From positions 124,001 through 188,000 of the forward strand of contig JAILOG010000001.1 in assembly GCA_024690965.1 (NCBI GenBank): 64,000 nucleotides of DNA. The letters are read 5' to 3'. How positions within the stretch are numbered: position 1 is the stretch's first letter; every line of letters begins with the position of its first letter. Under the pieces are notes generated by a model, which worked only from the letters and a program-made list of their open reading frames with translations, was not told the DNA's origin and did not search any database. The translations under genes were made by a program, and so were the position numbers. This stretch comes from Clostridiales bacterium (GTDB lineage: Bacteria; Bacillota; Clostridia; Oscillospirales; Acutalibacteraceae). Below, one piece after another: positions 2,974-46,034 of this stretch.

Positions 2974-5900
2974 TTAAAACTTGTCAATAAGTTTGGCTAT
3001 AAATTTTTGTATTTGCGTCACGTCAAGCATATTAATTGTGCTGTCGCCGTTTACATCAGCGTTTTCGCTTTGCTTGGCTGTTAACTCAACAAGCTTTGCA
3101 ATATGCTTTTGTATTAGCGTGACATCAGACATTTTAATTTCGCCGTCTAAATCCGCGTCGCCCTTTATGACAGTATCACTGTCGGTGGGCTTATCGCTGT
3201 CGGTAGGTTTGTCGGTGTCTGTTACCGTTTTATCATCGGTATCAGGATTTACATCTGCGCTGTTTGTTAAAATATCGCTGCACTTCACCCTTATGATTTC
3301 GTTTACGGTGAATCCCTGCGCAATATAGCTGTCTATTTCATCAAAATCGGCACTGCACTGTTCAAGGTCGTAATAGCCTATTGCCTGATAAAATCCCTCT
3401 ACGGTGAGGTTAAGATCATCAAGCAGCTTTTTGTCAAACGATATTATAAGCGAGGCCGTGTCATCCTCTATAAGTATTACGCGGTAATCAAGTCCCAACG
3501 CATTGTTGGCTATAAGCCACGCATCTATGTTTTTCGCACCTTTTTTAAGATGCACTTTGTCGCCTAATTCAAAGTCGTAATGAACAATCGGTATGTCGCC
3601 GTCCGGGTCTTGTTCGGGCTTTTCGTGTGTAAGCGAGCTTATAGGCGCGTAGAAATAAAGAGAATACGGCTTGCCCGACTCAATTGCTGCTTTATATTTA
3701 TCGTAGTCTACTTCGTCGCTTTCTCTGTTGCAACCTATGACCTGCAAAAATCCGTCACAGTCAACACCAAGCTGTTTAAGCAAATCTGGACTTACCTCCA
3801 GCTTAAGCATAGCCACCTCTTCGTTTAAAGAAGCGATTTTATAATCAAGCACCATACCACTGTACCCGACCTCATCGTTTTCGCCGAGTTGACTGCCGTA
3901 TTTTAGATATACCGTATCACCAACCGAGAAAATCTCTTTATCTGTTTCGGTAGCTATATCATTGTCGGAGGGCATTTGTGCGGTATCGGTTTCAGCTGAC
4001 GAATCTGTGTCTATCGTATAGAATTCGGTATCTGTCAATAAACTTGTATCGGTAGTTGTGTCTGTTGTTGTATCGGTTTCTGTTTCTGTTGTTATATCCG
4101 TTGCCGTATCTGTTGCTGTATCCGATAAGGTATCTGTTGTTGTGTCTGTGGAAGTATCCTGCTCGGTGTCCGATAATGCTTCCGTATCGGTTATTGGAGG
4201 CGGTGCGTAATGCTCAAGGCAGGCGGTACTGATATCAAATATAAATTCACGTTTATTTCCTGAGATGTAATCGTAATAATCATCCGTATTATCCCGTGTT
4301 ATTCCAAAGCACGCCAAAAAGTCGGATATCGGCGTTTTTATGCTGCCGTATTCCAACCGTATCTTAAGCGTGGCAAAATGTCCCTGTACAGATACTGTCT
4401 CATAGTTAAGATCAAGTGCGCTGCTGCCTATTTTGTAAGCGTTTGTAAGTCTTGCGTCAGCCGCGAGCGTTACCGTGTCCCCCGCTTTAAAATCAGTTTC
4501 CCGCTGTGTGTGAACGTAGCCTTCAACTCCCCTGTAATCATAAACATTGTACACTTTTTCGCCTGCAACGTTTCTTACCGCCTGAACGGTATAATAATAC
4601 AGGCTGTCTTTAGGCGCGTTGTAAAGAATACATTCGCTACCCGTATATTCGGTATTCACAGTTGTCCATACGCTTCCGGTTGTACTGCGCATAAGAATAC
4701 GGTAAGCGTCGGCGTATTTTGATTTTGTCCATTTTATCTTAAGCCCCTGTTCACACTCGGTACAGGAAGTAATATGAGTTTCCCCCATCAGACAGCAATA
4801 TGCCACCACGGCTTCTGTGCCGTAAGATGTATGGCCGTTATACGATGAATATGGAACCACCTTATAATAATAGAGCGAATCGGTATCTACGTTTTTGTCT
4901 GTAAACCCACAGGAAAGCCCTGTTGGTACAGTCTGATACAACGTCCATTTATTTTCATTAAGTAAATGCCTGTAAACAAGATATCCGTTTGCGTTTGATA
5001 CGGTGTTCCATTTCAGTGTAATATCGCTCTCATTGCATACAGCGCTTAATCCAAGCGCTTGATTGCTGTCCACCATAAGATAAGAAGAAATTGAATATCC
5101 TATTGTGTCGTCTTTTCCGTCTTTTATTGTAACGGGATTATTAAGCGTGCCGCCCGCAAGCGTTTTTCCCGATTTACCCGCTGTTACTGTCATGCCTTTT
5201 ACTGTTACCGGCTTACCACTTGAAGAATCGCAGTATATTTTTGCGCCCCACGAATAATCGGTATACTCTTTACTGCCGAAAAGGCTTATATCGTCAAGCT
5301 TAAAATAAAACGTGGCTGTCTCGGGCTGTGATAAAGATGAAGATGAAACGCCGCTGAATGAGTATCCGTTATACGGCCTTTTGTCCGCGCCGTCAAACAA
5401 AACAAGCTTTTCGTAATCTCTTATAATACGCTTATTGTATATTTTCATTGAAACATCGTTCCTGTCGTACGCGCTCACCGTTACACCAAGAACCAAGTCG
5501 GGCATACCGACAATTATATCGCTGTCCCAATAAGTAAAATAGAATCTTTCAAATGATACGCTTCTAGATAACTGTGTTACGGGGCTCGCAGTTACAATTA
5601 TTTTGCTTTCAAAATTATCGCCCTGCGAAGTTGCGGCAATGCCCGGCAAAGACAAAGAACAGCAAACAGACGAATTCACGATATTGATAGTCGTAAGCTT
5701 TGTCAAACGCCCCTGAACAGAAACTTTATCTCCCGTATTCAAAAACGCGTAATCATTGTGATTTGCCGCCATTAACCAATATGTGCCTTTGTATTTTGAA
5801 TCATAACACGATGAATTGAATCCGCTTAAGTTAACAACATCCTCATACGGAAGAACGCACCATTCGGATAATTCGTCGGCGATGTTTGTAAGCTCTGTAT

Positions 5901-7197
5901 AAGATTCTGATGCAAAAGTCGTTTTGTATGATATAAACGGTCCAAGTGAAGAATCAAGTCCCGATACTCTTCCTATGGTATATTTGCGGTAAGTTTTACC
6001 GTTTATTGTTTTGCTGCCCACATCCGTAAACTGCCAGTTTGATGATTCGGCAAAATAGTTCGCGGAATATACCTTAAGGCTACCGTCAACGGTCAAATTC
6101 ATACCGCTTTTATACAAAGCAGCGTTATTAAGCGCGGAGTATTGCGATGACAGATTGACAGAATCGTACATAACCCAGCAATACCCCTGGTTTTTCCAGC
6201 TTTTGCCCCAGGAATTCGCCATTAAAAACGCGCCCTTCATTGTAACGCCGCCGAATACAGCCTCAATATTATCATCGTAGCCGATAATTGATACTGCGTG
6301 TCCGCCAACGGCATTTCCCTGAGCGGCTATCAATACGTAATCGCCTTTTTTGCCTATATCGCCGCTTTTGCTTGCCGTTGAATAAAACCATCTGTCGGAT
6401 TGTCCGCTTGCTATAACAACGTTGCCCGATAATATGGCATTTTTAATTTTATTAAGTATATTTTTCCCATCCGACGATGTAGTTAATTTGTGATCGTAGT
6501 CCTCCATATCGTACATATCGTAAGCGTCGGTACTTTTAAGGCGGTATTTAAGAGCGTCATACATTCCGTCCAAATCCCAGGATACCGTCTTTTTATTCAA
6601 GTTACCAGTGTGCCCGGAACCCAAAGCGCTGTCCTCAAATTTGCATTTGTCATATGTAACGGCGCCGTTTTCCGCTAAAATCCCGTAAACATTACTTGTT
6701 TTACCGCCTACAAAATTATATGTCCATTTAGGAGAAAAAGTATTTGAGTCATTCTTTGAGGGATCCCATGAATCGTCTATATGATATTTTTCAATATAGC
6801 GTGATACAGCATTGGAAAACTGCATATATGTAACTGACTCTGAAGCGCACGAGCCGATATTTCCCTGGTCGGTGATAGGAGGAAGATGCTTGTTGCCCCT
6901 CAAAGAATATGAAGAAGGCAACGCTTCTGCCTTTATTTTTGAAGAAGAGCCTTTTCTTATATGCGAGCCGCCCTCGGAATTATATATCTCCGCCGACTCT
7001 TTTATACTCTGCGCAAGCGTATCTTTTGCGGGATCATACTGTCGGCTGATCATTTGCGTGTTGCAAACGCCTCTTTGAGAGCTTTCGTTGCTGCCCTTAT
7101 CGTGCGAATCATACGCGGCTGCACCGCCCGGAAGGATTACTCCCAAAACGATAATAACACACAATATTATTGAAAAAAACTTATACTTGTTTCTCAT
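2974..7197 (-). CDS. Secreted papain-like (C1) cysteine protease with Fn3 domains, three repeated modules and a dockerin
   Basis: 1,407 residues. Signal peptide 1-28. Papain-like domain about 93-365 with oxyanion Gln111, catalytic Cys117 (GSCASES), His300 (GHAVSIIGYDD) and Asn328 (ANSWGKSW), so it should be active. Residues 370-700 form beta-rich domains resembling the lectin-like region often found after clostridial C1 domains. Two Fn3-like domains at about 714-800 and 808-897. A module of about 100 residues occurs three times (901-995, 1089-1189, 1208-1310), the first two separated by a Thr/Asp linker (1003-1088). Dockerin at 1345-1402 with two Ca loops (DADLDGEIKMSD, DVNGDSTINMLD). It would be exported and docked on a cohesin. 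The ribosome site before ATG 7197 is weak. Confidence 0.9.
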   Translation of the reverse strand: MRNKYKFFSIILCVIIVLGVILPGGAAAYDSHDKGSNESSQRGVCNTQMISRQYDPAKDTLAQSIKESAEIYNSEGGSHIRKGSSSKIKAEALPSSYSLRGNKHLPPITDQGNIGSCASESVTYMQFSNAVSRYIEKYHIDDSWDPSKNDSNTFSPKWTYNFVGGKTSNVYGILAENGAVTYDKCKFEDSALGSGHTGNLNKKTVSWDLDGMYDALKYRLKSTDAYDMYDMEDYDHKLTTSSDGKNILNKIKNAILSGNVVIASGQSDRWFYSTASKSGDIGKKGDYVLIAAQGNAVGGHAVSIIGYDDNIEAVFGGVTMKGAFLMANSWGKSWKNQGYCWVMYDSVNLSSQYSALNNAALYKSGMNLTVDGSLKVYSANYFAESSNWQFTDVGSKTINGKTYRKYTIGRVSGLDSSLGPFISYKTTFASESYTELTNIADELSEWCVLPYEDVVNLSGFNSSCYDSKYKGTYWLMAANHNDYAFLNTGDKVSVQGRLTKLTTINIVNSSVCCSLSLPGIAATSQGDNFESKIIVTASPVTQLSRSVSFERFYFTYWDSDIIVGMPDLVLGVTVSAYDRNDVSMKIYNKRIIRDYEKLVLFDGADKRPYNGYSFSGVSSSSLSQPETATFYFKLDDISLFGSKEYTDYSWGAKIYCDSSSGKPVTVKGMTVTAGKSGKTLAGGTLNNPVTIKDGKDDTIGYSISSYLMVDSNQALGLSAVCNESDITLKWNTVSNANGYLVYRHLLNENKWTLYQTVPTGLSCGFTDKNVDTDSLYYYKVVPYSSYNGHTSYGTEAVVAYCCLMGETHITSCTECEQGLKIKWTKSKYADAYRILMRSTTGSVWTTVNTEYTGSECILYNAPKDSLYYYTVQAVRNVAGEKVYNVYDYRGVEGYVHTQRETDFKAGDTVTLAADARLTNAYKIGSSALDLNYETVSVQGHFATLKIRLEYGSIKTPISDFLACFGITRDNTDDYYDYISGNKREFIFDISTACLEHYAPPPITDTEALSDTEQDTSTDTTTDTLSDTATDTATDITTETETDTTTDTTTDTSLLTDTEFYTIDTDSSAETDTAQMPSDNDIATETDKEIFSVGDTVYLKYGSQLGENDEVGYSGMVLDYKIASLNEEVAMLKLEVSPDLLKQLGVDCDGFLQVIGCNRESDEVDYDKYKAAIESGKPYSLYFYAPISSLTHEKPEQDPDGDIPIVHYDFELGDKVHLKKGAKNIDAWLIANNALGLDYRVILIEDDTASLIISFDKKLLDDLNLTVEGFYQAIGYYDLEQCSADFDEIDSYIAQGFTVNEIIRVKCSDILTNSADVNPDTDDKTVTDTDKPTDSDKPTDSDTVIKGDADLDGEIKMSDVTLIQKHIAKLVELTAKQSENADVNGDSTINMLDVTQIQKFIAKLIDKF

Positions 7198-7321: not shown

Positions 7322-9835
7322 TCAGCCGATTGTAGGTCCTAAAGAAGGAATAAGCTTTGCAAGGTATCTCTGAATAAGTGTAACGTCTGTCATAGAACCT
7401 TGACCGTCGCCGTCGCAGTCTGCATTTATTTTAGACATTGCGCCGTAAGACTCATAAGTTGAAAGCGCAGCTATAATCTTCTGAAGTGAAGTTACGTCTT
7501 CCATTTTAACCTCGCCGCTGCAGTCAACATCGCCGTAAAGCGGTTGTCCGCCGCTATTTTCAAATATAGCGTAAAGTGTAACGTTCTTCTGCGGCAATGA
7601 TGCCAAAACGCCTGTCATTCCAATGCCTGAGCCATCACGTGCGGTGTTCCATTCTTTAAATGTGCTGCCCGCAAGAACAGGTGTGGGAAGAACAACGTTC
7701 TCGCCCTTGATAGCCTGGAATGAATACATATCGTTGTAATCTACACCGTCTACCGTGATTGTAGCGCCGTTTGTGATAAGAGTAATAAACTGTGTATCAC
7801 CGTCGGAAATACGCTCTTCCGTGTTTGTGTCAACCTCTGTGTTATCTGATGTATCGCTGTCAGGTTGACCGCTTGATCTATAGTTGTTTTGACCGTCAAG
7901 TGTTTCTTCAAATCTTGAGCAAGTGTAAGTAGTATTGTTTCCGCCGAGGTTAATATCGGTATTATCCGATACGGGAAGCCACAAGGCAAGCAAACCGTTT
8001 TCATCGGCCTTTATCTGCTTGCCGGCAAAATACTCCTTGCCGCCGTAAGTTATGTGTCCCACAGGCTCATTAGGTGTGAGACCTGTAATTACGCACTGAT
8101 ATACTTTCTCTGTCTCGTTAAAGGCGTTTCTTGCAACAGCTGAAGTCGTTGGAACAGCTTGCACAAAATGAGCATAATCACCGTTTTCAACTTCGCTTTC
8201 ACCCTTTGCAACATGAACGTTACCACCGTAAATGCGAATGTCACCGTCATTCATAATATCTGTTGCGGCAACGCCGTAAGCGCCCTTAAGAGATACTATT
8301 CCGTCATATATTCTGAATACGTGAATCTCTTTCGCGGATACGCAAGCGCCTTTTTCGGCTGTTATGTCGAGCTTGCCGTCACGAACTGACAGATTAAGGT
8401 TTTCGCCTACAATGCCGCTGTTTTTAGCATTAAGCTTGATTTTAGCGTCGTTAATTTCTGTTTCCAATGAGCCGAGATCAATACAATTGTAAGCTTCAAT
8501 GCTCATCTCGCCACCCGTAAGTGTGTAAGAATTGCTTGCCTTTAAAGCAACAGTTTCTGTTTCGGAAGGAGCGTTTATTGCAAAGGTACCGGCAGTCATT
8601 TTGAAATCGTCGCACGTTACGGTGTTTTCCATATTTGCGCCGGAATGTTCTATGCTTACCTCAGCCTCTTCGCCTATCTCGAATGTGCTTACATCGCGTA
8701 TAGCGCTTGCCATTGAAGATTTTACATTCAATTTACCGCCTGTTACGCTAAGGCTGAATCTATTCGTATCTTTGATGTGATTGGGATCATCCTTGCTGTT
8801 AGATGCAATACCCCATCCGCGATACTCGTTTGTAACTCCGTCTTTTTCCTTTTCGTAGTCGCCGCCTGTAACTGAAAGTGTACCGCCCGCAATATTAATA
8901 CTACCACCGTTATATACTTTAAGCGCTGTTATCTTTGCCTGGCGCGTTTTGTTTTTATATTCTTCAGTATTTACAACTGTATTATCAATTTTATATGCCG
9001 GCAGCATATCATTATCAATTACAAGCTCACCGCCGTTTACATACACATCTTTTGCCTCTGCATGAGCGCATATAAGCTTACCGTCGTTCATCGTAACTGA
9101 ACCGCGTGTCGTTGTAATTCCCGTTGTTTGCCAATAGTCTTTTTCGTCTTCGTATAAGAAGTAGTTGTTGCTTCTGTCCTGAACAAGTGTGACTGTACCA
9201 CCGTTAAATTCAAAATCTCCTCCCATAAGTCCGCAGCCGAACAGATAGAGTATCATAAAACTGTCGTTTAACGAATTGCTGAGAGAATATAATCTTACAT
9301 TACCGTTGTCTTTTAAATTGTGTATACCGTTCATCCACGGGAATTCGTTTGTGCCTTCTTGTAAATATCTATCAAGCTTTATAATGTTTTCTCCCGAAAA
9401 ATAAATATTAACATTACACTCAGATTTGTTAACTATAAAGTCGGTAACGTCTCTTTTTAACGCCTGCACGTCTCTGAAAACGATATTAACATCACGTGTT
9501 GTACCTTCGGCGATAATTATTCGGAAGTTGCCTATGTAGGGTGCGCTGCCGCAATGTAAAGATATGTAATAATCACCGTTTACAGCCGTAAAAGGCGTAT
9601 CAAATATCGCACCAGTTACAACAATTTTATCACTTAATCTGTAGCCGGTGTTGTTAAATTCAAGATACCCCCCAAATTCATCGGTGCTTGATATGTTGAT
9701 ATCCTTTGCGCAGGTTCCCGGCGGCATTGAACCGACGGTTTGCTTACCGTTTTCCACAGCAAAAGCAGAAACGCAGCACATAAATACAAGCATCAAAGCC
9801 AAAGCTATGGAAATTATTTTTTTACTTACTTTCAT
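7322..9835 (-). CDS. Secreted beta-helix-like protein with InlB-type repeat and C-terminal dockerin
   Basis: 837 residues. Signal peptide 1-26 (cleavage after AFA). Residues about 200-560 carry repeated short beta-strand turns of the type GGxxxxxGGxLxV (MNDGKLICAHAEA, NIAGGTLSVTGG, LTGGEMSIEA, IRIYGGNVHV), typical of a right-handed beta-helix; similar helices in Clostridia bind pectin-like glycans, but no catalytic residues are recognisable. An Asp/Thr linker (655-680) is followed by an InlB/Flg_new-type repeat (about 683-760, ending VTLYAIFEN). Dockerin 767-829 with loops DVDCSGEVKMED and DCDGDGQGSMTD. GGAGGT precedes ATG 9835 at good distance. It has its own consensus promoter and a structured leader. 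Probably a carbohydrate-binding or adhesive component. Confidence 0.8.
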   Translation of the reverse strand: MKVSKKIISIALALMLVFMCCVSAFAVENGKQTVGSMPPGTCAKDINISSTDEFGGYLEFNNTGYRLSDKIVVTGAIFDTPFTAVNGDYYISLHCGSAPYIGNFRIIIAEGTTRDVNIVFRDVQALKRDVTDFIVNKSECNVNIYFSGENIIKLDRYLQEGTNEFPWMNGIHNLKDNGNVRLYSLSNSLNDSFMILYLFGCGLMGGDFEFNGGTVTLVQDRSNNYFLYEDEKDYWQTTGITTTRGSVTMNDGKLICAHAEAKDVYVNGGELVIDNDMLPAYKIDNTVVNTEEYKNKTRQAKITALKVYNGGSINIAGGTLSVTGGDYEKEKDGVTNEYRGWGIASNSKDDPNHIKDTNRFSLSVTGGKLNVKSSMASAIRDVSTFEIGEEAEVSIEHSGANMENTVTCDDFKMTAGTFAINAPSETETVALKASNSYTLTGGEMSIEAYNCIDLGSLETEINDAKIKLNAKNSGIVGENLNLSVRDGKLDITAEKGACVSAKEIHVFRIYDGIVSLKGAYGVAATDIMNDGDIRIYGGNVHVAKGESEVENGDYAHFVQAVPTTSAVARNAFNETEKVYQCVITGLTPNEPVGHITYGGKEYFAGKQIKADENGLLALWLPVSDNTDINLGGNNTTYTCSRFEETLDGQNNYRSSGQPDSDTSDNTEVDTNTEERISDGDTQFITLITNGATITVDGVDYNDMYSFQAIKGENVVLPTPVLAGSTFKEWNTARDGSGIGMTGVLASLPQKNVTLYAIFENSGGQPLYGDVDCSGEVKMEDVTSLQKIIAALSTYESYGAMSKINADCDGDGQGSMTDVTLIQRYLAKLIPSLGPTIG

Positions 9836-15819: not shown

Positions 15820-15857
15820 ATCGGTCGCGGCAAATATTGTGCCGCTATTCTCCTTTT
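15817..15857 (-). promoter_or_regulatory. Ribosome site split from start codon by a hairpin (alr)
   Basis: Minus strand: AAAAGGAG (15857-15850), then AATA, then a stem GCGGC/GCCGC (15845-15841 with 15831-15827, 9-nt loop), then GACCGAT and ATG 15819. Linear distance 30 nt; with the 19-nt hairpin looped out it is 11 nt. No alternative start in the gap. Confidence 0.65.
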
Positions 15858-16547: not shown

Positions 16548-16590
16548 ACAGCACAAAGCACCCGCTTTTTCAAGCGAACGCTTCTCCTTT
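16545..16590 (-). promoter_or_regulatory. Ribosome site split from start codon by a hairpin (mtnN)
   Basis: Minus strand: AAAGGAG (16590-16584) abuts a 28-nt hairpin (16583-16556): outer AAGC/GCTT, a 3x3 internal loop, inner CGCTT/AAGCG closed by a GAAA tetraloop. Eight nt then lead to ATG 16547. Linear distance is 36 nt, 8 nt when folded. Confidence 0.65.
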
Positions 16591-20423: not shown

Positions 20424-21923
20424 TCAGCCCTTGGCTTCTACCGGAAAATGCTCTGTAAGTTTTGCTATATACTGCTGAATCAATACAACATCAGCCATAG
20501 TTACCTGCTCGTTTCCGTCTGTATCTCCAAGTTTCATTTGAGTCTCGTTAAAAGTGACAAGTTTTGCTATTTCTTTTTGTATCATAACAACGTCGTCCAT
20601 TGTCACTTTACCATCACCTGTCACATCACCGTAAATCAGCTTATCTACATCAGTGTTTTCTGTATCGGTGTTTTTAACATCAGAGTCCGTATTATCTGTC
20701 TCGGAATCTTTCATCGACGGCTCATCGCCATCGTAAACTATAACAGTAATTGTATGAAGAATCATTCTCCCGTTAAAAAGGATCACGCAATATGTGGCGG
20801 TGTACTCTCCCTCTTTTACCGGAACACCTCTATAACCTGCCTCAGCATTGCCCCAAGTATATTCCATACCTTCTGGGATCTCGCCGTTTATATATTCAAT
20901 ATCATAATATGAATCATCGTGACCGTCTTTAAAGTGTATATGGGCATCTTCATTTATTTTTACGCGGACAGTCTCGCTTGATTCTTCAAATTCATCACTC
21001 ACTACCAAAATTTTAAATGTATAATAAATTATTTTACCGTTTTCAAGAGTGACTTTAAACGCAATATCATATCTGCCCATCCGCGTAGGTGTTCCGTAAA
21101 TACTGAGTTCATTATCCTCCGCGCTGCTCCATTCCATACCCTCGGGCAGCTCGCCTTCAATAAACTCCGTCTCTATTATTTCAGAGCCGTCAGAGTTGTC
21201 ATAATCCCACTCAAGATAAGTCTCTTCTCCTACCTGCGCATTGCATTCCATGCTGTCATTTTCAGGCAACGGCGCGCCTTGTTCAACCACAATGACCGTA
21301 ATTGTATGCACGATTACCCTGCCGTCATATAGTGTAATACGATAAATAGCCGTGTATTCACCTGTATTTGCGGGTTTTGCGTAATAATAGGGTTTAACAC
21401 TATAATTCCAAACAAGCGTCATATCGGGCATATCGCCGCTTACTAATTCCACTTTATAGTAACTAGCAATACCGGAATCAATGTCAAAATTAACTTTTGC
21501 ATCTTCATTTTGGTGCAAATAAACCGTTTGGTCTGAAAAAATAACGCCGTCTGTTTTTATCAAAATCTCATAAGAGTAATTAAATGATTCTCCGTTATCA
21601 AGCGTTACCTTAAACTGAAGCACATAATTGCCTGCCTTTGCGGGCGTACCGTAAATATGCAGTTTTTGAATGTTCTTATAGTCCCAATCCATTCCCTCGG
21701 GGATTTCTCCATGGTTAAGTTCAATCTCTTTTATCTTAGCACCGTTAAGGTCAACAGTCCATTCAAGGTCCGTTTTTTCGCCTACGGTCACCTCAAACAT
21801 CCCATAATCTTCGTATTCTGCCATAATCTTATCGTTTATAAGCGCCGTTGCCGAAACAGGCAACATACATATTATCATAACGGCTGCCAATAAAAACGAT
21901 AATACTTTTTTGCTTTTTACCAT
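20424..21923 (-). CDS. Secreted protein with four Ig-like (He_PIG-type) domains in ABAB order and a dockerin
   Basis: 499 residues. Signal peptide 1-27. Four beta-sandwich repeats of about 95 residues follow. Domains 1 and 3 share LEW near the start, then GELPEGMEW-type and IYGTPxxxGxY motifs. Domains 2 and 4 share NEDA..., YYxxEYINGEIP/ELVSGDMP and GEYTAxYxxxLxxGRxIxHTITVIV. A Thr/Asp linker leads to a dockerin (about 430-492) with loops DVTGDGKVTMDD and DTDGNEQVTMAD. No catalytic motif is seen, so an adhesive or structural role is likely. ATG 21923 is chosen because it starts the signal peptide and follows a GGGGT site; upstream in-frame codons lie between promoter and start. Confidence 0.85.
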   Translation of the reverse strand: MVKSKKVLSFLLAAVMIICMLPVSATALINDKIMAEYEDYGMFEVTVGEKTDLEWTVDLNGAKIKEIELNHGEIPEGMDWDYKNIQKLHIYGTPAKAGNYVLQFKVTLDNGESFNYSYEILIKTDGVIFSDQTVYLHQNEDAKVNFDIDSGIASYYKVELVSGDMPDMTLVWNYSVKPYYYAKPANTGEYTAIYRITLYDGRVIVHTITVIVVEQGAPLPENDSMECNAQVGEETYLEWDYDNSDGSEIIETEFIEGELPEGMEWSSAEDNELSIYGTPTRMGRYDIAFKVTLENGKIIYYTFKILVVSDEFEESSETVRVKINEDAHIHFKDGHDDSYYDIEYINGEIPEGMEYTWGNAEAGYRGVPVKEGEYTATYCVILFNGRMILHTITVIVYDGDEPSMKDSETDNTDSDVKNTDTENTDVDKLIYGDVTGDGKVTMDDVVMIQKEIAKLVTFNETQMKLGDTDGNEQVTMADVVLIQQYIAKLTEHFPVEAKG

Positions 21924-21999
21924 TTTAATACCCCGTTTACAAAATATTGTTTCTTTGCGTGAAAAAGCACAATAATTCTCTGATTTTCCACACAGCAAA

Positions 22000-29541: not shown

Positions 29542-30762
29542 TTATATTTTCATTCTCAAAAGCGAGCCTGCGGGGATATCTCTGCCGCAGCCAAGCTTTA
29601 GCTTTTCCATAGCGTGCGGCGCGCTTTCAACGCTTTCGCCGTGTTCGTTTGTAAGGGATTTTACTATAACTGTAAACGGAATACCGCCGGGCGGCAAAAC
29701 ATCAAGCTCATCGCCAACGCAAAACTTATTCTTTTGGATTATATTAACCACGCCGTTTTGTGAGCCTTCGCTTATCGCCACAACCGTGTAGTTTCTTATA
29801 TAGCCGCCGTTTTCAAGCACCTGACCCGGCTCACCGCCGAGATAAAATCCTGTTGAATATTCTCTGTGGCTTATTTTGTTAAGTTCGTCTTTTATCCACG
29901 GGCTTAGGTGATAATTTTCCTTATCACGCAAATAATCGTCTATTGCGTGCCTGTAAGCATTTGCGGTAACGGCTGAGTAATAAGACGATTTTGCTCTGCC
30001 CTCTATTTTAAGACTGTTTATTCCCGATTTTATAAGCTCGGGTATATAGTCTATCATACACATATCACGCGAGTTATACAAAAACGTTCCGCTGTCGTCT
30101 TGCTCCACGGGGAAATACTGTCCTTCACGGTTTTCCTCATATAATCTGTATTTCCATCTGCAAGGCTGGGCGCAGTCTCCCCTATTTGCGTCTCTACCCG
30201 TCATATAATACGATATAAGGCACCTGCCCGAAAAAGAAACGCACATCGCGCCGTGAACGAATGCTTCTGTCTCGAGCTCTTTCGGTATTTTCGCCCTGAG
30301 GTCGGCAATGTCGTCAAAGCTTAATTCCCGCGCGAGAACAACTCTTTTTGCGCCTAAGTTGTAAAACATATTGGCTGATTCATAATTAACAATACCTGCT
30401 TGGGTGGAGATATGGATATCCGTGTTAGGCGCGTACTTTTTCGCAAGTGATAAAACGCCGAGGTCCGCGATTATAAGCGCGTCTGTACCGATGCTTTCCA
30501 AAAACTGCAGATATTCAGGCATTTTGTCTATTTCTTTGCTTTTAGGCACGGTGTTGCATGTAACATACACCTTTTTGCCGAGTGAGTGTGTTTCCGCTAC
30601 GGCTTTTCTCATCGTGTCTTCATCAAAATTCTTTGACGAAGTTCTCATACCGAACTGCTTACCCGCGATATAAACGGCGTCGGCTCCAAACGCGAGAGCA
30701 TATTTCAAGCTTTCATACTCACCCGCAGGGCATAAAAGCTCTACGGTTTTATTTTCGTTCAT
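29542..30762 (-). CDS. U32-family peptidase (YhbU/RlhA-like)
   Basis: 406 residues. N-terminal LLCPAGEYESLKYALAFGADAVYIAGK and the family signature ETEAFVHGAMCVSFSGRCLIS are present, with the DCAQPCRWKY cysteines that in related proteins bind an Fe-S cluster. Members act in collagen degradation or, as RlhA/TrhP, in hydroxylation of rRNA or tRNA; adjacency to mltG and alaS in Clostridia fits the tRNA-hydroxylation type. ATG 30762 is the only start; an in-frame TAG lies upstream. The ribosome site AAGGAG is 47 nt away behind an 8-bp hairpin. Confidence 0.9.
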   Translation of the reverse strand: MNENKTVELLCPAGEYESLKYALAFGADAVYIAGKQFGMRTSSKNFDEDTMRKAVAETHSLGKKVYVTCNTVPKSKEIDKMPEYLQFLESIGTDALIIADLGVLSLAKKYAPNTDIHISTQAGIVNYESANMFYNLGAKRVVLARELSFDDIADLRAKIPKELETEAFVHGAMCVSFSGRCLISYYMTGRDANRGDCAQPCRWKYRLYEENREGQYFPVEQDDSGTFLYNSRDMCMIDYIPELIKSGINSLKIEGRAKSSYYSAVTANAYRHAIDDYLRDKENYHLSPWIKDELNKISHREYSTGFYLGGEPGQVLENGGYIRNYTVVAISEGSQNGVVNIIQKNKFCVGDELDVLPPGGIPFTVIVKSLTNEHGESVESAPHAMEKLKLGCGRDIPAGSLLRMKI

Positions 30763-30815
30763 AACACATTCAAATACCCCAACGCAAAACTAAAACGCAG
30801 GGGTATTAACTCCTT
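30760..30815 (-). promoter_or_regulatory. Ribosome site split from start codon by a hairpin (U32 peptidase)
   Basis: Minus strand: AAGGAG (30815-30810), TT, then AATACCCC (30807-30800) pairing perfectly with GGGGTATT (30780-30773) around a 19-nt loop, then 10 nt to ATG 30762. Linear distance 47 nt; 12 nt with the hairpin looped out. An in-frame TAG in the loop excludes an earlier start. Confidence 0.7.
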
Positions 30816-32374: not shown

Positions 32375-32917
32375 TTAACGGCACTGCAACGCTTTGCGCA
32401 CCTTATCAGACGTTGCCGGCCCCTTTAATTTTGCCGCTATCTCCAAACCGAAATCAATCGCGACTCCCGCACCTTTGGCTGTAATTATATTACCGTCGAC
32501 GCAAACGTGTTTTTCACTTATATCCGCGCCGGCAAGCTCATTTTCAAATCCCGGAAAACAAATCGCTTCTTTACCTTTTAATAATCCCATATGTCCGAGA
32601 ATTGAAGGCGCCGCGCATATAGCGCATATTGTCAGATTGTTTTCGTAACAGTATCTCACACACTGCGTAACAATAGGTGATTTCTCCAAATTCAGCGTGC
32701 CGGGCATACCGCCGGGTAACACAACACATTCCATATCGTCCGTTGTGATCTCGGATTCATTTATATCTGCCGTCACATTTATATTGTGCGAGCCCTTGAC
32801 CTGCAACCCCTTTCCCACGGCAACCGTTGTAACATTACAGCCGGCGCGGCGTAGTATATCTACGGGAGCGAGAGCCTCGGTCTCCTCGAATCCTTCTGCT
32901 AAAAAAACATATACCAT
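32375..32917 (-). CDS. DJ-1/PfpI family protein
   Basis: 180 residues. Nucleophile-elbow cysteine in AICAAPSILGHMGLL near residue 100, N-terminal YVFLAEGFEETEALAPVDILRRAG with the conserved Glu, and VVLPGGMPG. Members include protein/nucleotide deglycases, glyoxalases and chaperones; the exact activity is unknown. ATG 32917 is the first start in the frame. The ribosome site is separated from it by a 10-bp imperfect hairpin. Confidence 0.9.
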   Translation of the reverse strand: MVYVFLAEGFEETEALAPVDILRRAGCNVTTVAVGKGLQVKGSHNINVTADINESEITTDDMECVVLPGGMPGTLNLEKSPIVTQCVRYCYENNLTICAICAAPSILGHMGLLKGKEAICFPGFENELAGADISEKHVCVDGNIITAKGAGVAIDFGLEIAAKLKGPATSDKVRKALQCR

Positions 32918-32967
32918 AATTCTGTTTTTCCAAAAGCGACAAATTCAGTGCCGTTTTGTATTCCTTT
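32915..32967 (-). promoter_or_regulatory. Ribosome site split from start codon by a hairpin (DJ-1 gene)
   Basis: Minus strand: AAAGGAA (32967-32961), TA, then CAAAA-CGGCA (32958-32949) pairing with TGTCG-(C)-TTTTG (32941-32931), one bulge and one G-U pair, then 13 nt to ATG 32917. A weak GGAA 12 nt before the ATG is an alternative site. Confidence 0.5.
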
Positions 32968-34455: not shown

Positions 34456-36981
34456 TTATAAGTACTTGTTATAATCCGTATCGGCAAGCTCATCGCAACG
34501 GTCAAGCGGTTCAAGCTCTTTCATTACTATATTTGCGGAACGCTGTTTAACGCCCTTTTTGTATATTCCCTCAAATATCTTGTTGCCGTCATTATCAAAT
34601 TCTCTGCCCATACCGTGCGGCACTCCGTCACGGATAGCGCCTTCGTAAATCAGGGTCTTGCCGTCGTCGGTGTAGCGTTTAATGAACACGCACTCGTTAT
34701 CTCTAAACAGGCATCTGCTGACTACAACGCCATTGCTTATTATATTTACACGGCCGGCGGGCTTACCGTTTAAAAAGCTACCTACATAGCCCTGTGCTTC
34801 ACCCGAGAACAGCATACCGCAACCGTTGTATGTGTTATTATCCCACATACCCGTGTATATCTTGTCGCCGTCCTCTGCGGTACCGAAGCCCTTGCGAACA
34901 TCGTCAAAAAAGCTTCCGCTGTAAACAAGTCTCCCGTTTGAATATTCGTTGCCTTCGCCGTTTTTTAAGCCATTTTTAAATCCGCCGTCATAAATAAGCT
35001 TGCCGTTTTTGTAAAGCTTTCCTTTACCGTTGTATTCGCCGTTTTCAATTTCTCCGTCATAGATCATATATCCGTTTGAAGAATACAACCTGCACTTACC
35101 GTGGGGCTTGCCGTTTTCAAAATACCCCTCGGTCGCTCTGCCATCGTCGTATACAAGTCTGCCTAATCCGTTATAAACGTCATCTGTCCATGCACCCGAA
35201 TATTCAGGCATACCGTTTTCGTTATATGAAACGCCGTAGCCGTTACGTTTGTTATCTTTTATCTCTCCGTTGTACAAAAGCTTGCCGTCGGCATCAAAAA
35301 TACAACAGGATTTTTTCGGTATGCCGTTTTCATAGCTTTCCACTATAAGGCGGTCGCCGTCAAAGCGCATACCCAAACCGTTTTTAACCCCCTCAGAAAC
35401 GGCGCCGATAAACTCGAAATCGCCTTCTCTGTTTATATTTGCCTGTATTCCTTCTTGTTTGTTATTAATCCATTTTCCTACGGTTATAACATCTTGTGAA
35501 GAATTAAGCGCCATTCCGAAGCCCGAGCGCTTATTCTTTTTCCACTGACCCACATGGCAAAGCTTGCCCGATTTGTAATAGTAAGCTCCTACGCCGTCTC
35601 GTTTATCATTTTTATATTCGCCCTCGTAAGCGGTGTTGCCTTTTTCCATTGCCGTTCTGCCGTAGCCGTCGCGCAAGCCGTCCTTTAATTCACCTGTATA
35701 ATAATAACTTCCGCCCGAGGCATCGGATACAACCCTGTCGGGCTGCACAGCGACTTCATCGAGTCTTTCATTGTTATAGTCGATATTTGTGCTGTCTCCT
35801 TGTTGCAAAGCATCGTCAACTGGGGCTTTTGCCGGTTCTTCTTCCGGGATATAAGAATTATCCGCATAGTTTTCGGGCTCGGGATTTACATCGCCGTAAT
35901 CAAAAGCGTTATAATCATCCTGCGGCACATCCGAGCCTGAATACGGCTCATTGTACGGTTGTTGTTCCTCTGTGTAGCTGTAATCCTGCGGCATATCATA
36001 ATTTGCAGGTTCCTCCTGGGGATAATAGCCCTCGTCATTGTCGTACATATCATTAAACACGCCGTCTATATCCGCAGGCACGTCCTCGTAAGCCGTGGGA
36101 ATATCGTTTTGCATATTGACCATTCTCGGTCTGGGGTCTGCGTCGTTATAAAAATACGGGGTTTTTGACTTACGGTTAAGTTTTGCCAGATCCACGCTGT
36201 CGTATTCTTCGTCGAAAGATGTATTCATTTCACTCGCGGCACGCGTAATATCTATTTTGTAATCTCCGTTTGCAGAAACAGAATCTATATCAATATCAAA
36301 TCCTGCTTCTCTGTCTACATTTTCATCGTAAACGTCAATGTCGCCGCGGAGCTCTTCTCTAACTCTCTCAAGAGTTTGCCCCCACAAAACGGCTTTGTCG
36401 TAGGGCGCATAATAGTAGTATCCTTTGGTTGTATGGCAAGCCACGTCGGGTACCTCTGCGACCTCTTTCATTCTGTTCATTTCGCGGTCATTTTGAGGCA
36501 TAAGGCAAGGATAAAGTATCGTTTCTACTCCTTTTTCCTCCGATATAAGATTAATGTTCATCGAGGTTCTGTGGGCTTTAAGCACCCTTGCAGGGCTTAC
36601 CTGGTTCCACACAAGATATTCGGTCTTTATCCATTCGTGTTCTCGTGAAAAATACTGTTTTTTCTGTGTGAAAAAGTCTACGGGGCTGATTGTCTCCACA
36701 CAGTAATAATCGTTTGCCAACTCAACAAACTCTATTAAAGTTTCTCCCTCAAATTTTTGCCATTTAAGGGGGAAGCTTTTAGAAAGTCCGTACAGATATT
36801 TACATGAAATTCCTCCCCATGATTCCGTTACCTTGCTCTTGGGAACAAATCCGTTTTTAAAGTACTCTCTTCTCACATTGGCAAGCACGTTGGAGTTTTG
36901 TCGCTCCATATCAAACGTAAGCAGTGAAGCAACGAGTATGTGTGTATCTCTGCTCAAAGTATTAATGTATTTCTCAGACAT
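34456..36981 (-). CDS. Large MORN-repeat protein
   Basis: 841 residues, no signal peptide. Residues 1-260 form an unrecognised N-terminal domain (SRDTHILVASLLTFDMER, WGGISCKYLYGLSKSFPLKW). Residues 260-430 are acidic and Gln/Tyr/Pro-rich, probably disordered. From about 430 to 820 there are some fourteen MORN motifs (YYTGELKDGLRDGYGR, YEGEYKNDKRDGVGAYY, YDGGFKNGLKNGEG). MORN repeats bind lipids or proteins. AAAGGGG precedes ATG 36981, and a consensus promoter lies just upstream. thyX follows after 30 bp. The N-terminal domain would be worth a structural search. Confidence 0.85.
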   Translation of the reverse strand: MSEKYINTLSRDTHILVASLLTFDMERQNSNVLANVRREYFKNGFVPKSKVTESWGGISCKYLYGLSKSFPLKWQKFEGETLIEFVELANDYYCVETISPVDFFTQKKQYFSREHEWIKTEYLVWNQVSPARVLKAHRTSMNINLISEEKGVETILYPCLMPQNDREMNRMKEVAEVPDVACHTTKGYYYYAPYDKAVLWGQTLERVREELRGDIDVYDENVDREAGFDIDIDSVSANGDYKIDITRAASEMNTSFDEEYDSVDLAKLNRKSKTPYFYNDADPRPRMVNMQNDIPTAYEDVPADIDGVFNDMYDNDEGYYPQEEPANYDMPQDYSYTEEQQPYNEPYSGSDVPQDDYNAFDYGDVNPEPENYADNSYIPEEEPAKAPVDDALQQGDSTNIDYNNERLDEVAVQPDRVVSDASGGSYYYTGELKDGLRDGYGRTAMEKGNTAYEGEYKNDKRDGVGAYYYKSGKLCHVGQWKKNKRSGFGMALNSSQDVITVGKWINNKQEGIQANINREGDFEFIGAVSEGVKNGLGMRFDGDRLIVESYENGIPKKSCCIFDADGKLLYNGEIKDNKRNGYGVSYNENGMPEYSGAWTDDVYNGLGRLVYDDGRATEGYFENGKPHGKCRLYSSNGYMIYDGEIENGEYNGKGKLYKNGKLIYDGGFKNGLKNGEGNEYSNGRLVYSGSFFDDVRKGFGTAEDGDKIYTGMWDNNTYNGCGMLFSGEAQGYVGSFLNGKPAGRVNIISNGVVVSRCLFRDNECVFIKRYTDDGKTLIYEGAIRDGVPHGMGREFDNDGNKIFEGIYKKGVKQRSANIVMKELEPLDRCDELADTDYNKYL

Positions 36982-37015
36982 ATAAGCAGCCCCTTTGCAA
37001 ATTAATACAGAATAG

Positions 37016-37044
37016 ATTATATTACATTTTTTTGTAATTTTCAA
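37016..37044 (-). promoter_or_regulatory. Promoter of the MORN-thyX-tmk series
   Basis: Minus strand: -35 TTGAAA (37044-37039), 17-bp spacer, -10 TATAAT (37021-37016). The spacer carries an ATTACA/TGTAAT inverted repeat. Confidence 0.75.
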
Positions 37045-37172: not shown

Positions 37173-37511
37173 ATGAAAAAGCTCATTTTGATAACGGGAA
37201 TAATTCTTATTCTTTCGGTAATAATCAACGCGCAGATAATACCCGCGCTCGCAAAGCAATCTGCCGAAATTAAAACGCCGAAAAAACAAACAATAGTTGA
37301 TGAAATTCAGCCCGACCCGTATACAGGCTATATAGTTAAAGAATTCAACGGTAAAATAGCCGTATTTGAAAAGGGCTTTGCAAATCCGTACCGAATGACA
37401 GATATGCCCGTAAGCTTCTTGCCCGAGTATGACAAAAATCTCCTCATAAGCGGCATAGAGCTGGGCTCACAAGACGAGGTAAGCAGAGTGCTTGAAGATT
37501 ATTTAAGCTAA
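37173..37511 (+). CDS. Small exported or membrane-anchored protein, BofC-C-terminal-like
   Basis: 112 residues. N-terminal hydrophobic segment 1-22, a polar linker, then about 60 residues beginning YIVKEFNGKIAVFEKG and ending LLISGIELGSQDEVSRVLEDY. This fold-length block occurs in many spore-forming Clostridia and resembles the C-terminal domain of BofC, a regulator of forespore signalling; the match is by eye. AAAGGTG stands 9 nt before ATG 37173. It is a single-gene unit with its own terminator. Confidence 0.7.
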   Translation: MKKLILITGIILILSVIINAQIIPALAKQSAEIKTPKKQTIVDEIQPDPYTGYIVKEFNGKIAVFEKGFANPYRMTDMPVSFLPEYDKNLLISGIELGSQDEVSRVLEDYLS

Positions 37512-37517
37512 AAAAGG

Positions 37518-37559
37518 CTCCGCAACGGGCATTATGCCTGACATTTGCGGAGATTTTTT
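37518..37559 (+). terminator. Terminator of the BofC-like gene
   Basis: CTCCGCAA (37518-37525) pairs with TTGCGGAG (37545-37552), inner GGGCAT/ATGCC, then ATTTTTT. Confidence 0.85.
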
Positions 37560-37581
37560 GTCTTTGCGCACAAAAAGTGCT

Positions 37582-37618
37582 CATCTAAAAAAGGCTTCTC
37601 CTTGAGGAGAAGCCTTTT
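37582..37618 (-). terminator. Second ackA terminator
   Basis: Perfect 13-bp stem AAAAGGCTTCTCC/GGAGAAGCCTTTT (37589-37601, 37606-37618) with a 4-nt loop; on the minus strand TTTTTTAGA follows. Confidence 0.85.
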
Positions 37619-37626
37619 GGCAAGAA

Positions 37627-37652
37627 AAAAGCGGCTCCGCAGAGCCGCTTTT
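37627..37652 (-). terminator. First ackA terminator
   Basis: Perfect 11-bp stem AAAAGCGGCTC/GAGCCGCTTTT (37627-37637, 37642-37652) with loop CGCA; TTTTTTCTT follows on the minus strand. It lies 10 bp after the ackA stop. Confidence 0.9.
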
Positions 37653-37662
37653 CCATTTTAAA

Positions 37663-38874
37663 TCATTTCATGTTTTCTACGATTTCTTTAGTATCCCTTG
37701 CAATAACAAGCTCTTCGTTGGTGGGAATAACAAACACCCTTATTTTTGAATCCGGCGTTGATATTTCGTCACACTTGCCTCTTATTGCTGCTTCGTTTCT
37801 CTTGTCGTCAATTTTAACGCCGAAACAAGACAGATAGTCGCAAATCGCTTTTCTGTGTGAAGGCTGGTTCTCGCCCAGTCCCGCGGTAAACAGAATTGCA
37901 TCGCAGCCGCCGAGGGCTACATAATATCCGCCGATAAATTTAGCTATCTGATATCTCAGCATATCGTGCGCGAGCTGAGCTCTCTTGTTGCCCTCAAGAG
38001 CCGCCTTTGTAACGTCTCTGTCATCGCTGCTAACGCCCGAAATACCCAGCAAGCCCGATTTTTTGTTGAGCATCTGGCTCATTTCATCGGGAGAAATATT
38101 ATCAATCTGCGCCATATATGTTACAACCGAGGGGTCAAGTGTTCCCGAACGGCTGCCCATCATAAAGCCGTCAAGCGGAGTGAGACCCATACTTGTGTCT
38201 ATAACCTTGCCGTCTTTTATCGCGGTTATTGAAGAACCGTTGCCCAAGTGACAGCTGATAAGTTTTATATCCTTTAAATCCTTGCCCATAAGCTCGGCAC
38301 ACTTCGCGCTTACATATCTGTGAGAAGTACCGTGGAAGCCGTAACGTCTTATCTTGTTTTCTTCATAATATTTATAAGGAACGGCATACATATAAGCCTT
38401 GGGGGGCATTGTCGCGTGGAATCCCGTGTCAAATACAACAACCTCGGGTATATCCTTGCCGAAAGCTTCCTGCGCGGCGTTTATAGCCTGCAAATGCCCT
38501 TTGTTGTGCAACGGCGCAAGCGGGATAAGTGACGCTATTCCCTCTTTAACCTTTTCGTCAACGAGTACCGATCTGTCAAATATAGCGCCGCCCTGAACTA
38601 TACGGTGACCTACCGCGCTTATTTCGTCAAGGCTCTTTATAACGCCTACTTTTTCGTCAAGCAAAGCTTCTTTTACTCTCGCAAAGGCGGCGGCGTGGTC
38701 TGGCATATCTACCTTTTCATCCTTTATTTCTCTGCCGTCTGCCGTTTTGTGACCGAAAAGCCCGTCCATACCTATTCTCTCGCAATTTCCCTTTGCAAGC
38801 ACAGACTCGTTATCCATATCAATAAGCTGATATTTGAGTGACGAGCTACCGGCGTTTATAACTAATATCTTCAT
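37663..38874 (-). CDS. ackA: Acetate kinase
   Basis: Makes ATP and acetate from acetyl phosphate. 403 residues. N-terminal MKILVINAGSSSLKYQ, the phosphate-binding SCHLGNGSSITA, and the signature GLTPLDGFMMGSRSG are intact. No pta gene is adjacent. The gene is divergent from tmcAL, whose product uses acetate. Its ribosome site AGAGGAG is followed by a 6-bp hairpin and 10 nt before ATG 38874; no other start is possible. Two terminators follow in tandem. Confidence 0.98.
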   Translation of the reverse strand: MKILVINAGSSSLKYQLIDMDNESVLAKGNCERIGMDGLFGHKTADGREIKDEKVDMPDHAAAFARVKEALLDEKVGVIKSLDEISAVGHRIVQGGAIFDRSVLVDEKVKEGIASLIPLAPLHNKGHLQAINAAQEAFGKDIPEVVVFDTGFHATMPPKAYMYAVPYKYYEENKIRRYGFHGTSHRYVSAKCAELMGKDLKDIKLISCHLGNGSSITAIKDGKVIDTSMGLTPLDGFMMGSRSGTLDPSVVTYMAQIDNISPDEMSQMLNKKSGLLGISGVSSDDRDVTKAALEGNKRAQLAHDMLRYQIAKFIGGYYVALGGCDAILFTAGLGENQPSHRKAICDYLSCFGVKIDDKRNEAAIRGKCDEISTPDSKIRVFVIPTNEELVIARDTKEIVENMK

Positions 38875-38911
38875 TGTTTTTTGTGCGTTTCGCTTTAAAA
38901 CGCTCTCCTCT
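38872..38911 (-). promoter_or_regulatory. Ribosome site split from start codon by a hairpin (ackA)
   Basis: Minus strand: AGAGGAG (38911-38905), A, then GCGTTT (38903-38898) pairing with AAACGC (38890-38885) around a 7-nt loop, then ACAAAAAACA and ATG 38874. Linear distance 30 nt, 11 nt when looped out. No second ribosome site lies in the A-rich stretch. Confidence 0.7.
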
Positions 38912-43523: not shown

Positions 43524-46034
43524 TCAGAATTTTTCTATAAGTTTAGCAATATATTTTTGTATTGTAGTTACATCAAGCATAGTTATATCGTCGTCAGCAT
43601 TTACGTCTGCAAGCTTTTTCTGTGCGGGTGTAAACTGTGAAAGCTTTGCAATATACTTTTGCAAAAGCACAACGTCCTCCATTGTAACAACACCGTCACC
43701 GTTTGGGTCTCCGAGAATGCCATCGGGTTTATCGGAATCGGTGGGCTTTTCGGTATCAGTAGATTGTTCGCTGTCGGTATGCGTTTCAATGTTTGTGTCC
43801 TGACTGTCCAAAGATGTAAATTTTATTTTATTTTCGTTTGCATACTTTTCTGCATATGAACCTGAATAGCCGCTGATGACCAAATCATTACATTCAATAA
43901 ACGCGGTATCGTTTATGTTTGTCACGCTTTTAGGTATCGTTACGCTTACAAGATTAGAACAATACAGAAATGCGCAGAATTCTATGGTTGTCACGCCGTC
44001 AGGAATCACAATGCTTTCAAGACACTTACAACTTCTGAAACAGTAGCTTTTGATACTTTTAAGGCTGTTAGGAAGAGTTACGCTTTTTAGGTTTTTGCAA
44101 TCGGCAAATGCGTCAGACTCTATGCTTGTCACGCCATATGGAATCACGATGCTTTCTAAGCTTGCGCAGCTTTGAAAACAGTAGTTTTCCATACTTTTAA
44201 GGCTTTTCGGAAGCGTCACGCTTTTTAAGTTTTTGCAATCGGCAAACGCGCAATAATCAATACATTCAACACCATTGGGAATAATTACGCTTTCAAGATT
44301 TTCACAACCCCAGAAACAGTGATCTCTCATATTTACCACACTTTCGGGAATATACACGCTTTTTACATTTGTTAAAGCACAAAAAGCATAGCCGCCTATA
44401 CTTGTTACACCACTTTCGATTTTTACGGCTTTTATATCATCGGCGTACGGGAACCAAGGTGTATCAACGTGTTTCAGCCAATTATCCATATCACCGGTAC
44501 CGGTTATTGTAAGCGTACCGGTGTCCATCTCCAGCTTCCATGTCAGGCTATCACCGCATTTTCCAAATGGATTATCCAAAGGAACAAACTTAATGCCGTT
44601 ATTATCAGCGTACTCATGCATATAAGAGCCAAAATATCCGTAAATTGTTAAATCTTCTATAATAAACGCTTCATTTCCTATGCTTTTTACACTTTCAGGT
44701 ACGGTTATGCTTTTAAGAGCTTCACAGTGCGCGAAAGCACGTTCACCTATGCTTTCAACTCTGTCGGGGATATTAATACTCTCAAGATTCAAACACATAT
44801 CAAAGGCGCATTTGCCTATACTTTTCAACCCTGAGGGCAAAGTAATGCTTTTTAATTCACTGCAGCATGAAAAACAATTATCGGGAATTTGAGTAACTCC
44901 TTCGGGGATTGTCGCGGTTTTAAGGCTCCTGCAACCGAAAAACGAATTATCCCCGATGCTTGTTATGCTGTCAGGCATGGTAACATTTTCAAGCATTTCA
45001 CAACTGTAAAATGCATACCCGCATATTGTTTCGGTTCCGTCTTTTATTTCATATGCTGTACAGGTTTCTTTAACAGCAATAAGATATTTTCCGATATACA
45101 GCGCGTCGCCTTCCCAATTCTGTTCGTCCTGATAATAAGCCGTTGCATCAAACAAATTCCTCGATACGCCCGTTACTCCGTCGCCCAACGTTATTTTCGC
45201 CAGAAGCTCACATGAATCAAAGTTTTCAGGCATAATGGCTACGTTGTCAGGTACTGTTATCTCTTTTAAATTCTTACAAATCATAAATGCTCGTGTTTCA
45301 ATGGTTCTAACTCCACCGGGTACAGTATATGACTCATCGGTTTTGCCTGACGGATAGCAAATTAATGCGGTTTTGTCTTTGTTAAACAATACACCGTCAA
45401 CGGATGAAAACTCAGTGTTTCCGCTTTTAACCTCTATGCTTTCAAGACCGACGCAGGGATAAAATGCGCTTCCTTCTACAGTTTTTAAACCCGCGGGTAA
45501 TTCTAACGTTTTAAGTGATTCACACTCCGCAAAAGCATTGTAACCGATAATTGTCAACGTGTCCGGCAAAGATATGTTTTCCAAACCCGAACAATGAAAA
45601 AACGCTTCATGTTCTATGCTCTGCAAGCCTTCTGAAATTTTGACGTTTTTTAATTTTTTGCAGTTTCCAAACGCAAAGGCAGCTAAGTTTTTTACACTGG
45701 CTGGTATAGTTACATCCGTAACATTGTTAAATCCCGCAAAAGCACTAACACCGATCTCGGTTATACCGTTTTCGATAACTATGGATACAGTGCCTGACCG
45801 TAAACAAGTCAAGGTACTCAAGGCACTGAAATCACTATCATCAATGATGATTCGGTTTATCACGCCTTCGCCGCTCAACGTAAGCACGCCATCTTCGCTC
45901 AGGCTATAAGTAATGTTTTCACCAAAACTGATATCCGGCCATGAATAATTCGCGCTTGCACTCTCCGGCAGGGATATATACACCCCCGATGTAAGCGCAA
46001 GTGTCAAAACAAATGCAAGAACTTTTTTTAGCAT
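43524..46034 (-). CDS. Secreted BspA-like leucine-rich-repeat protein with dockerin
   Basis: 836 residues. Signal peptide 1-28 (ends ASA). Many LRR_5 (BspA-type) repeats of about 23 residues with the core AFxxCxxLxxVxIPxxVxxI fill about 70-480 and 520-720, split by a short beta domain (GDSLTWKLEMDTGTLTITGTG) that also opens the protein. After a Thr/Asp linker (about 745-770) the dockerin (775-834) has loops DPNGDGVVTMED and DVNADDDITMLD. BspA repeats mediate adhesion to host or microbial proteins; the dockerin would place it on a cohesin. AAAGGAG precedes ATG 46034. Its promoter shares an upstream box with the 24879-26399 gene. Confidence 0.92.
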   Translation of the reverse strand: MLKKVLAFVLTLALTSGVYISLPESASANYSWPDISFGENITYSLSEDGVLTLSGEGVINRIIIDDSDFSALSTLTCLRSGTVSIVIENGITEIGVSAFAGFNNVTDVTIPASVKNLAAFAFGNCKKLKNVKISEGLQSIEHEAFFHCSGLENISLPDTLTIIGYNAFAECESLKTLELPAGLKTVEGSAFYPCVGLESIEVKSGNTEFSSVDGVLFNKDKTALICYPSGKTDESYTVPGGVRTIETRAFMICKNLKEITVPDNVAIMPENFDSCELLAKITLGDGVTGVSRNLFDATAYYQDEQNWEGDALYIGKYLIAVKETCTAYEIKDGTETICGYAFYSCEMLENVTMPDSITSIGDNSFFGCRSLKTATIPEGVTQIPDNCFSCCSELKSITLPSGLKSIGKCAFDMCLNLESINIPDRVESIGERAFAHCEALKSITVPESVKSIGNEAFIIEDLTIYGYFGSYMHEYADNNGIKFVPLDNPFGKCGDSLTWKLEMDTGTLTITGTGDMDNWLKHVDTPWFPYADDIKAVKIESGVTSIGGYAFCALTNVKSVYIPESVVNMRDHCFWGCENLESVIIPNGVECIDYCAFADCKNLKSVTLPKSLKSMENYCFQSCASLESIVIPYGVTSIESDAFADCKNLKSVTLPNSLKSIKSYCFRSCKCLESIVIPDGVTTIEFCAFLYCSNLVSVTIPKSVTNINDTAFIECNDLVISGYSGSYAEKYANENKIKFTSLDSQDTNIETHTDSEQSTDTEKPTDSDKPDGILGDPNGDGVVTMEDVVLLQKYIAKLSQFTPAQKKLADVNADDDITMLDVTTIQKYIAKLIEKF

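Follow-up and report, generated by a model that had tools for sequence, protein, structure and literature searches.

We found that the leader of ackA carries a compact hairpin between its Shine-Dalgarno sequence (SD) and its start codon, and that leaders of this layout recur above the shuffle expectation in genomes of the same genus, at genes of many functions. The ackA leader is probably a split ribosome binding site that the hairpin bridges. The gene lies on the minus strand at 37663-38874 of the window, by which we mean the whole stretch of 64,000 nucleotides that was analysed, and it encodes an acetate kinase of 403 amino acids, as indicated by matches to the TIGR00016 (E-value 1.8e-149) and PF00871 (E-value 4.2e-145) profiles, which agree with the name given in the first-pass annotation. 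The N-terminus, MKILVINAGSSS, agrees with the family, so that the start call fits, and the nearest named records, both metagenome assemblies, are Clostridiaceae bacterium Tb.RUG.134 (AckA 100% identical, rounded) and Clostridia bacterium SUG1368 (89%); record names of this kind point to the rumen as the probable source. Read directly along the minus strand, the leader consists of the SD AGAGGAG (38905-38911, identical in the congener G001), a single A (38904), a 19-nt hairpin GCGTTTTAAAGCGAAACGC (38885-38903), a 10-nt A-rich linker ACAAAAAACA (38875-38884) and the ATG (38872-38874). This matches base for base the order that the first-pass annotation had described, including its claim that the hairpin begins 1 nt past the SD. 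The stem allows two readings, the six pairs with a 7-nt loop described there, or seven pairs including a U-G with a 5-nt loop, and when the leader is folded together with the first 60 bases of coding sequence, the pairing probability in the stem is about 0.7, with the linker and the AUG mostly unpaired, in line with the earlier description of the linker as unstructured. The distance from SD to ATG is 30 nt, of which 11 nt (1 + 10) stay unpaired once the hairpin folds, and a reading of the sequence found no ATG, GTG or TTG between the two, the positions 4-11 nt after the SD being checked too. The 16S gene, which would carry the anti-SD, was searched for in the assembly and is absent.

In the mechanism that we propose, the 30S subunit would pair with AGAGGAG, the next 19 nt of the leader would fold into the hairpin and be looped out on the subunit, about 11 unpaired nucleotides would then part the SD helix from the AUG, near the normal spacing of this genome (peak near 9), and initiation would follow at the ackA ATG. 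We infer that the SD is in use, that the hairpin is folded within the initiation complex and that translation needs both. The nearest precedent with experimental proof is provided by genes 38 and 25 of phage T4, in which, according to the portion of the source that covers them, structure between SD and AUG cuts the spacing from 22 to 5 nt and from 27 to 11 nt, respectively, and destabilisation of the structure is reported to lower initiation (PMC3014915, citing Nivinskas et al. 1999; Malys and Nivinskas 2009). The T4 record gives for gene 38 an AAGGAG, an A, a UUCG-capped hairpin, a short linker and the ATG, with gene 25 alike, and the same folding program assigns the spacers similar energies (E -7.4 for gene 25, -7.7 for gene 38 and -7.2 for ackA). 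Three features of this T4 type are found at ackA, namely a distant strong SD (22-27 nt in T4, 30 nt in ackA) with no nearer start, a predicted stable local hairpin about 1 nt past the SD and a functional spacing once folded, within the range of 5-11 nt. Unlike the two experimentally proven phage genes, the genes considered here are chromosomal, have many functions and are known from sequence alone, and their hairpins are mutually unrelated in sequence and are gained and lost between congeners. A further comparison is the split ribosome binding site of E. coli thrS (Sacerdot et al.), modelled, in the portion of the source that treats it, as standby-site modules placed upstream of the SD (PMC3936740). 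The two are alike in that a structured element divides the region contacted by the 30S subunit, and differ in that the ackA hairpin sits between SD and AUG, a place where that portion of the source models no hairpin for thrS. Translational riboswitches, thermosensors and SD-sequestering hairpins also place RNA structure at the initiation region and hide the SD or the AUG, whereas in ackA both lie outside the hairpin. In the open-access literature that was searched, no paper was found that describes SD-hairpin-AUG leaders as widespread in a cellular genome. The bridging mechanism is already known; that it recurs in housekeeping genes across one genus, with hairpins turning over between species, appears to be new.

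Taken alone, the ackA hairpin is modest evidence. Compared with dinucleotide shuffles, the spacer is more stable than expected (z -2.3 to -2.7, p-value about 0.016), a compact hairpin also arises in about 9% of shuffled ackA spacers, and in the sampled own genome the 30 nt upstream of the leftmost start are equally stable in 22 of 721 genes. The larger fold of the ackA leader is ordinary (z 0.13). The weight therefore rests on the genus-wide survey and on the congeners. A role of the hairpin as a transcription attenuator was considered and rejected, since ACAAAAAACA comes next, with no U run, and the terminator scan was empty there.

Five further genes of the window share the layout of ackA. 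Four of them lie on the minus strand. The U32 family gene (29542-30762; leader 30763-30815) has the SD AAGGAG, TT, a 35-nt hairpin (30773-30807) and a 10-nt linker (E -16.2, z -4), and the DJ-1 family gene (32375-32917; leader 32918-32967) has AAAGGAA, TA, a 28-nt hairpin (32931-32958) and a 13-nt linker (E -7.5, z -2.1). In alr, whose ATG at 15819 agrees with TIGR00492, the leader (15820-15857) is composed of the SD AAAAGGAG, AATA, a 19-nt hairpin (15827-15845) and a 7-nt linker (E -10.2, z -2.7). The leader of the MTA/SAH nucleosidase (MTAN; ATG at 16547, leader 16548-16590), with AAAGGAG, a 28-nt hairpin (16556-16583) and an 8-nt linker (E -12.8, z -2.5), is less clean, as a TTG 10 nt past the SD could open an ORF of nine codons. 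The fifth gene, a membrane transporter on the plus strand (1273-2208; leader 1242-1272), has AAAGGAG, an A, a 15-nt hairpin (1250-1264) and an 8-nt linker (E -9.7, z -2.5).

To place these leaders within the genus, one mechanical pipeline was applied to about 1.02 Mb of the own genome (G000, window included), 0.63 Mb of the more distant congener G002, and 0.40 Mb each of G031 and G009, which belong to other genera of the same family. A match had to start at the first ATG of its gene, without an SD, however weak, at normal spacing before any start; it also needed a stronger SD located 17-60 nt upstream and one compact hairpin (E at most -5) that leaves 5-16 nt unpaired. We observed 11 matches among 717 genes in G000 (3.35 expected from dinucleotide shuffles) and 10 among 462 in G002 (2.69 expected), in contrast to 1 of 292 in G031 (1.71 expected) and 0 of 269 in G009 (0.56 expected). 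The genus total of 21 of 1179 genes differs from the 1 of 561 in the other genera (Fisher p-value 0.002), and these p-values are to be read in the light of the fact that the criteria were chosen over several rounds, after scans that showed no excess. The matches of the earlier and looser scan (G000, 37 of 723 genes; G002, 23 of 467; G031, 21 of 295) were swamped by misplaced starts and by long folds with imperfect pairing, and a first shuffle test that considered only spacer topology discriminated weakly. Tighter criteria were then set, namely a compact single hairpin, ATG starts and no weak SD at normal spacing. Subtracting the shuffle expectation, roughly 15 of the 21 genus matches are real. 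The mean z of long spacers points in the same direction, with -1.50 in G000 and -1.49 in G002 vs -0.22 in G031 and 0.04 in G009, and in control segments of equal length just upstream of the SD it is -0.14, -0.35, -0.47 and -2.24, respectively, the last value coming from two cases and being uninformative. The lone match outside the genus, L106:15835-16335 of G031, has an AAAGGAG followed by a long spacer hairpin of very high stability (E -23.1), and 400 kb of E. coli K-12 gave 0 candidate leaders among 317 genes. Unpaired spacing of 6-13 nt occurs in 18 of 30 single-helix spacers of the genus vs 44% of shuffles, a weak concentration. Within the own genome, 6 of the 11 matches fall in the 64-kb window (1273-38911), which is about 6% of the sampled sequence and far from an even spread, and this clustering may be partly selection, the window being where the feature was noticed.

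Upon comparison with G001, whose DNA is about 90% identical, we observed that the hairpin between SD and ATG is kept in all nine own-genome leaders compared (ackA, U32, DJ-1, alr, MTAN, the transporter, L131, L080 and murC, which is L040), and that the SD is identical in 9 of 9 while its flanks are altered. Two of the nine, murC and L131, entered this comparison though they are not survey matches, and murC is ambiguous, having an in-frame TTG at normal spacing after the SD; L074, located in both G001 and G002, was left out. Counted in the own-genome register, 63 of 77 pairs have the same bases, 6 survive a substitution in one partner, 1 survives substitutions in both, and 7 are lost. The U-G of the ackA hairpin becomes U-A, an A-U of the U32 hairpin becomes G-U, and the transporter hairpin loses one pair. 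The most telling leader is that of DJ-1, which with nine substitutions and a shifted register still folds (E -9.5, compared with -7.5 in the own genome). Across the leaders, folding energy is kept better than under an equal number of random substitutions (Fisher combined p-value 0.021). Stems do not change more slowly than linkers (15 of 154 vs 9 of 103 positions), the two changing at about the same rate, and taken together the comparison between G000 and G001 gives moderate evidence for selection on structure.

In G002, whose AckA is 89% identical, we read the orthologs of eight own-genome hairpin genes. Its ackA leader has a 13-bp hairpin of unrelated sequence in the same place (E -13.0, z -3.95), and the ROK gene likewise has an unrelated strong hairpin in the same place (E -12.2, z -3.4), both adjoined by strong SDs. 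The U32 ortholog has a weak unrelated hairpin (E -3.3, p-value 0.14), and the remaining five of the eight (DJ-1, alr, MTAN, murC and L141) have ordinary leaders, from which it follows that the hairpin is dispensable over evolution. The reverse case is also seen, with G002 hairpins at the gene beside U32 and at L095:6507, where the own genome has ordinary spacing; as presence and absence run both ways, hairpins have been gained and lost within the genus. More widely, ackA is present in 57 of 60 relatives; loci were obtained for 30, and 29 leaders were read, 3 from the genus and 26 from other genera. The survey of ackA leaders across Oscillospirales suggested in the first-pass annotation, run on these leaders, found spacer hairpins in the genus leaders and, by eye, in 0 of the 26 read from other genera, in which a purine-rich tract resembling an SD always stands at ordinary spacing. 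The feature is thus one of the genus and not of Oscillospirales ackA generally. Loss of bS21 as the cause was rejected, as bS21 is present in 29 of 30 relatives, including all three genus genomes.

The most serious rival to bridging is SD-independent initiation, the hairpin being an insertion that is tolerated. In this reading the open, A-rich linker by the AUG would suffice, and the SD and hairpin would be relics of an ordinary leader split by a palindromic insertion. The ackA linker is indeed A-rich and open, hairpins appear and vanish between congeners, and the effective spacing is only weakly concentrated, and yet the SD stays identical in all nine G001 leaders while the flanks vary, strong SDs stand beside unrelated hairpins at ackA and the ROK gene in G002, and spacer hairpins exceed shuffles in this genus only; we consider this rival unlikely. 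Chance, by which a spurious SD-like and palindromic sequence would precede a start that is used in another way, gains from the compact hairpins among shuffled ackA spacers (about 9%) and from the 3 to 4 matches expected by chance in the sampled own genome, but is rendered improbable by the excess over shuffles and over other genera and by the presence of a hairpin at the ackA site in both congeners. A similarly low probability, or a shade lower, attaches to the hairpin being a regulatory element that modulates ackA and not a bridge, such as a thermosensor or a protein or small-RNA target: moderately stable stems by the AUG could answer to temperature or to a helicase, and GCGTTTTA is common to three own-genome hairpins, whereas in the predicted fold the hairpin itself sequesters neither SD nor AUG, the G002 ackA hairpin is unrelated in sequence, and the only Rfam matches in the window are two tRNAs, on which ground a known RNA family for the ackA hairpin was rejected.

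Two further explanations are very hard to sustain. The SD could serve a short upstream ORF, with the main ATG reached by reinitiation or coupling, and a start codon does lie 4-11 nt past the SD in 7 of the 21 survey matches (for example L074 and L094); shuffles predict 9.6 such cases, so that there is no excess, and none is found in ackA, U32, DJ-1, alr or the transporter, which for standard start codons excludes this explanation at ackA. Transcription could also start downstream of the ackA SD, and a start at 38884-38905 was the objection that the first-pass annotation raised against its own idea. It has no support in the sequence, as the promoter-like sites found on the minus strand by consensus scan both lie upstream of the SD, TTGAAA-17-TATTAT at 38987-38959, in a region conserved in G001, and a second site at 39029-39001. 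Judging from its match to the consensus, the site at 38987-38959 would put the transcript start some 40 nt upstream of the SD. The hairpin bridge itself, as put forward in the first-pass annotation, is backed by the congeners, by the genus-level excess and by the T4 precedent, the ackA structure being kept in G001 and replaced in G002. The view in that annotation that the design would be compatible with strong translation stems from an expectation that ackA is highly expressed.

If the spacer hairpins do bridge SD and AUG, their role is most likely mechanical and not that of a binding site, because they have no common sequence that would account for them and they differ between congeners. A neutral origin is possible, in which the spacer would grow as a palindrome and the growth would be tolerated because the hairpin folds away. 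As a mobile hairpin family they were rejected, since a search of the sampled 1.02 Mb that allowed about 15% mismatch found 10 of the 12 hairpins tested only once; the AEC hairpin has 3 matches and the L080 hairpin 5, compared with 1.3 and 0.2 for shuffled hairpins, and since L080 is nearly palindromic it partly matches itself, these self-matches being included in its 5. The octamer GCGTTTTA is found in three otherwise unrelated hairpins (38885-38903, 30773-30807 and L034 near 17537), and the 12 hairpins share 4 8-mers vs 0.31 in simple shuffles (p-value 0.004), which may hint at how the hairpins arise. We put forward only tentatively, as a possibility on the doubtful side, that split ribosome binding sites are in routine use in the genus, at about 1.5-2% of genes including housekeeping ones, and that the hairpins turn over since geometry alone matters. 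The ribosome binding site would then be a cellular case of constructive neutral evolution, and the 30S subunit of the genus may tolerate folded RNA between SD and AUG unusually well. Were this true, a set of genes in this lineage would be misread by gene finders and translation models in which the SD must lie within about 4-14 nt, the leaders would supply cellular test cases for how much folded RNA the 30S subunit holds between SD and start codon, and the swap of hairpins at one gene between congeners would offer a clean view of how sequences evolve when geometry is the sole constraint.

Several minor observations were made in the same sequences. At L159:5890 of G002, a gene that we take from its N-terminal sequence to be gltX-like, an ATG CGT TCT TAG is near-ideally spaced after AAAGGAGG within the spacer hairpin, a possible leader ORF of three codons. 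Downstream of ackA, 37509-37652 contains a row of strong terminator-like hairpins (GGCTTCTCC..GGAGAAGCC and GCGGCTCCGCAGAGCCGC), with similar copies elsewhere in the own genome and in G001. A large protein of 862 amino acids with MORN repeats is encoded at 34456-37044. Finally, four proteins of the window have dockerin type I domains (2974-7197, 7322-9835, 20424-21998 and 43524-46034), one of them with a papain-like protease domain and another with leucine-rich repeats of the BspA type. Parts of the proteins at 2974-7197 and 7322-9835 have many similar copies in congeners, and the set suggests a surface system resembling a cellulosome.
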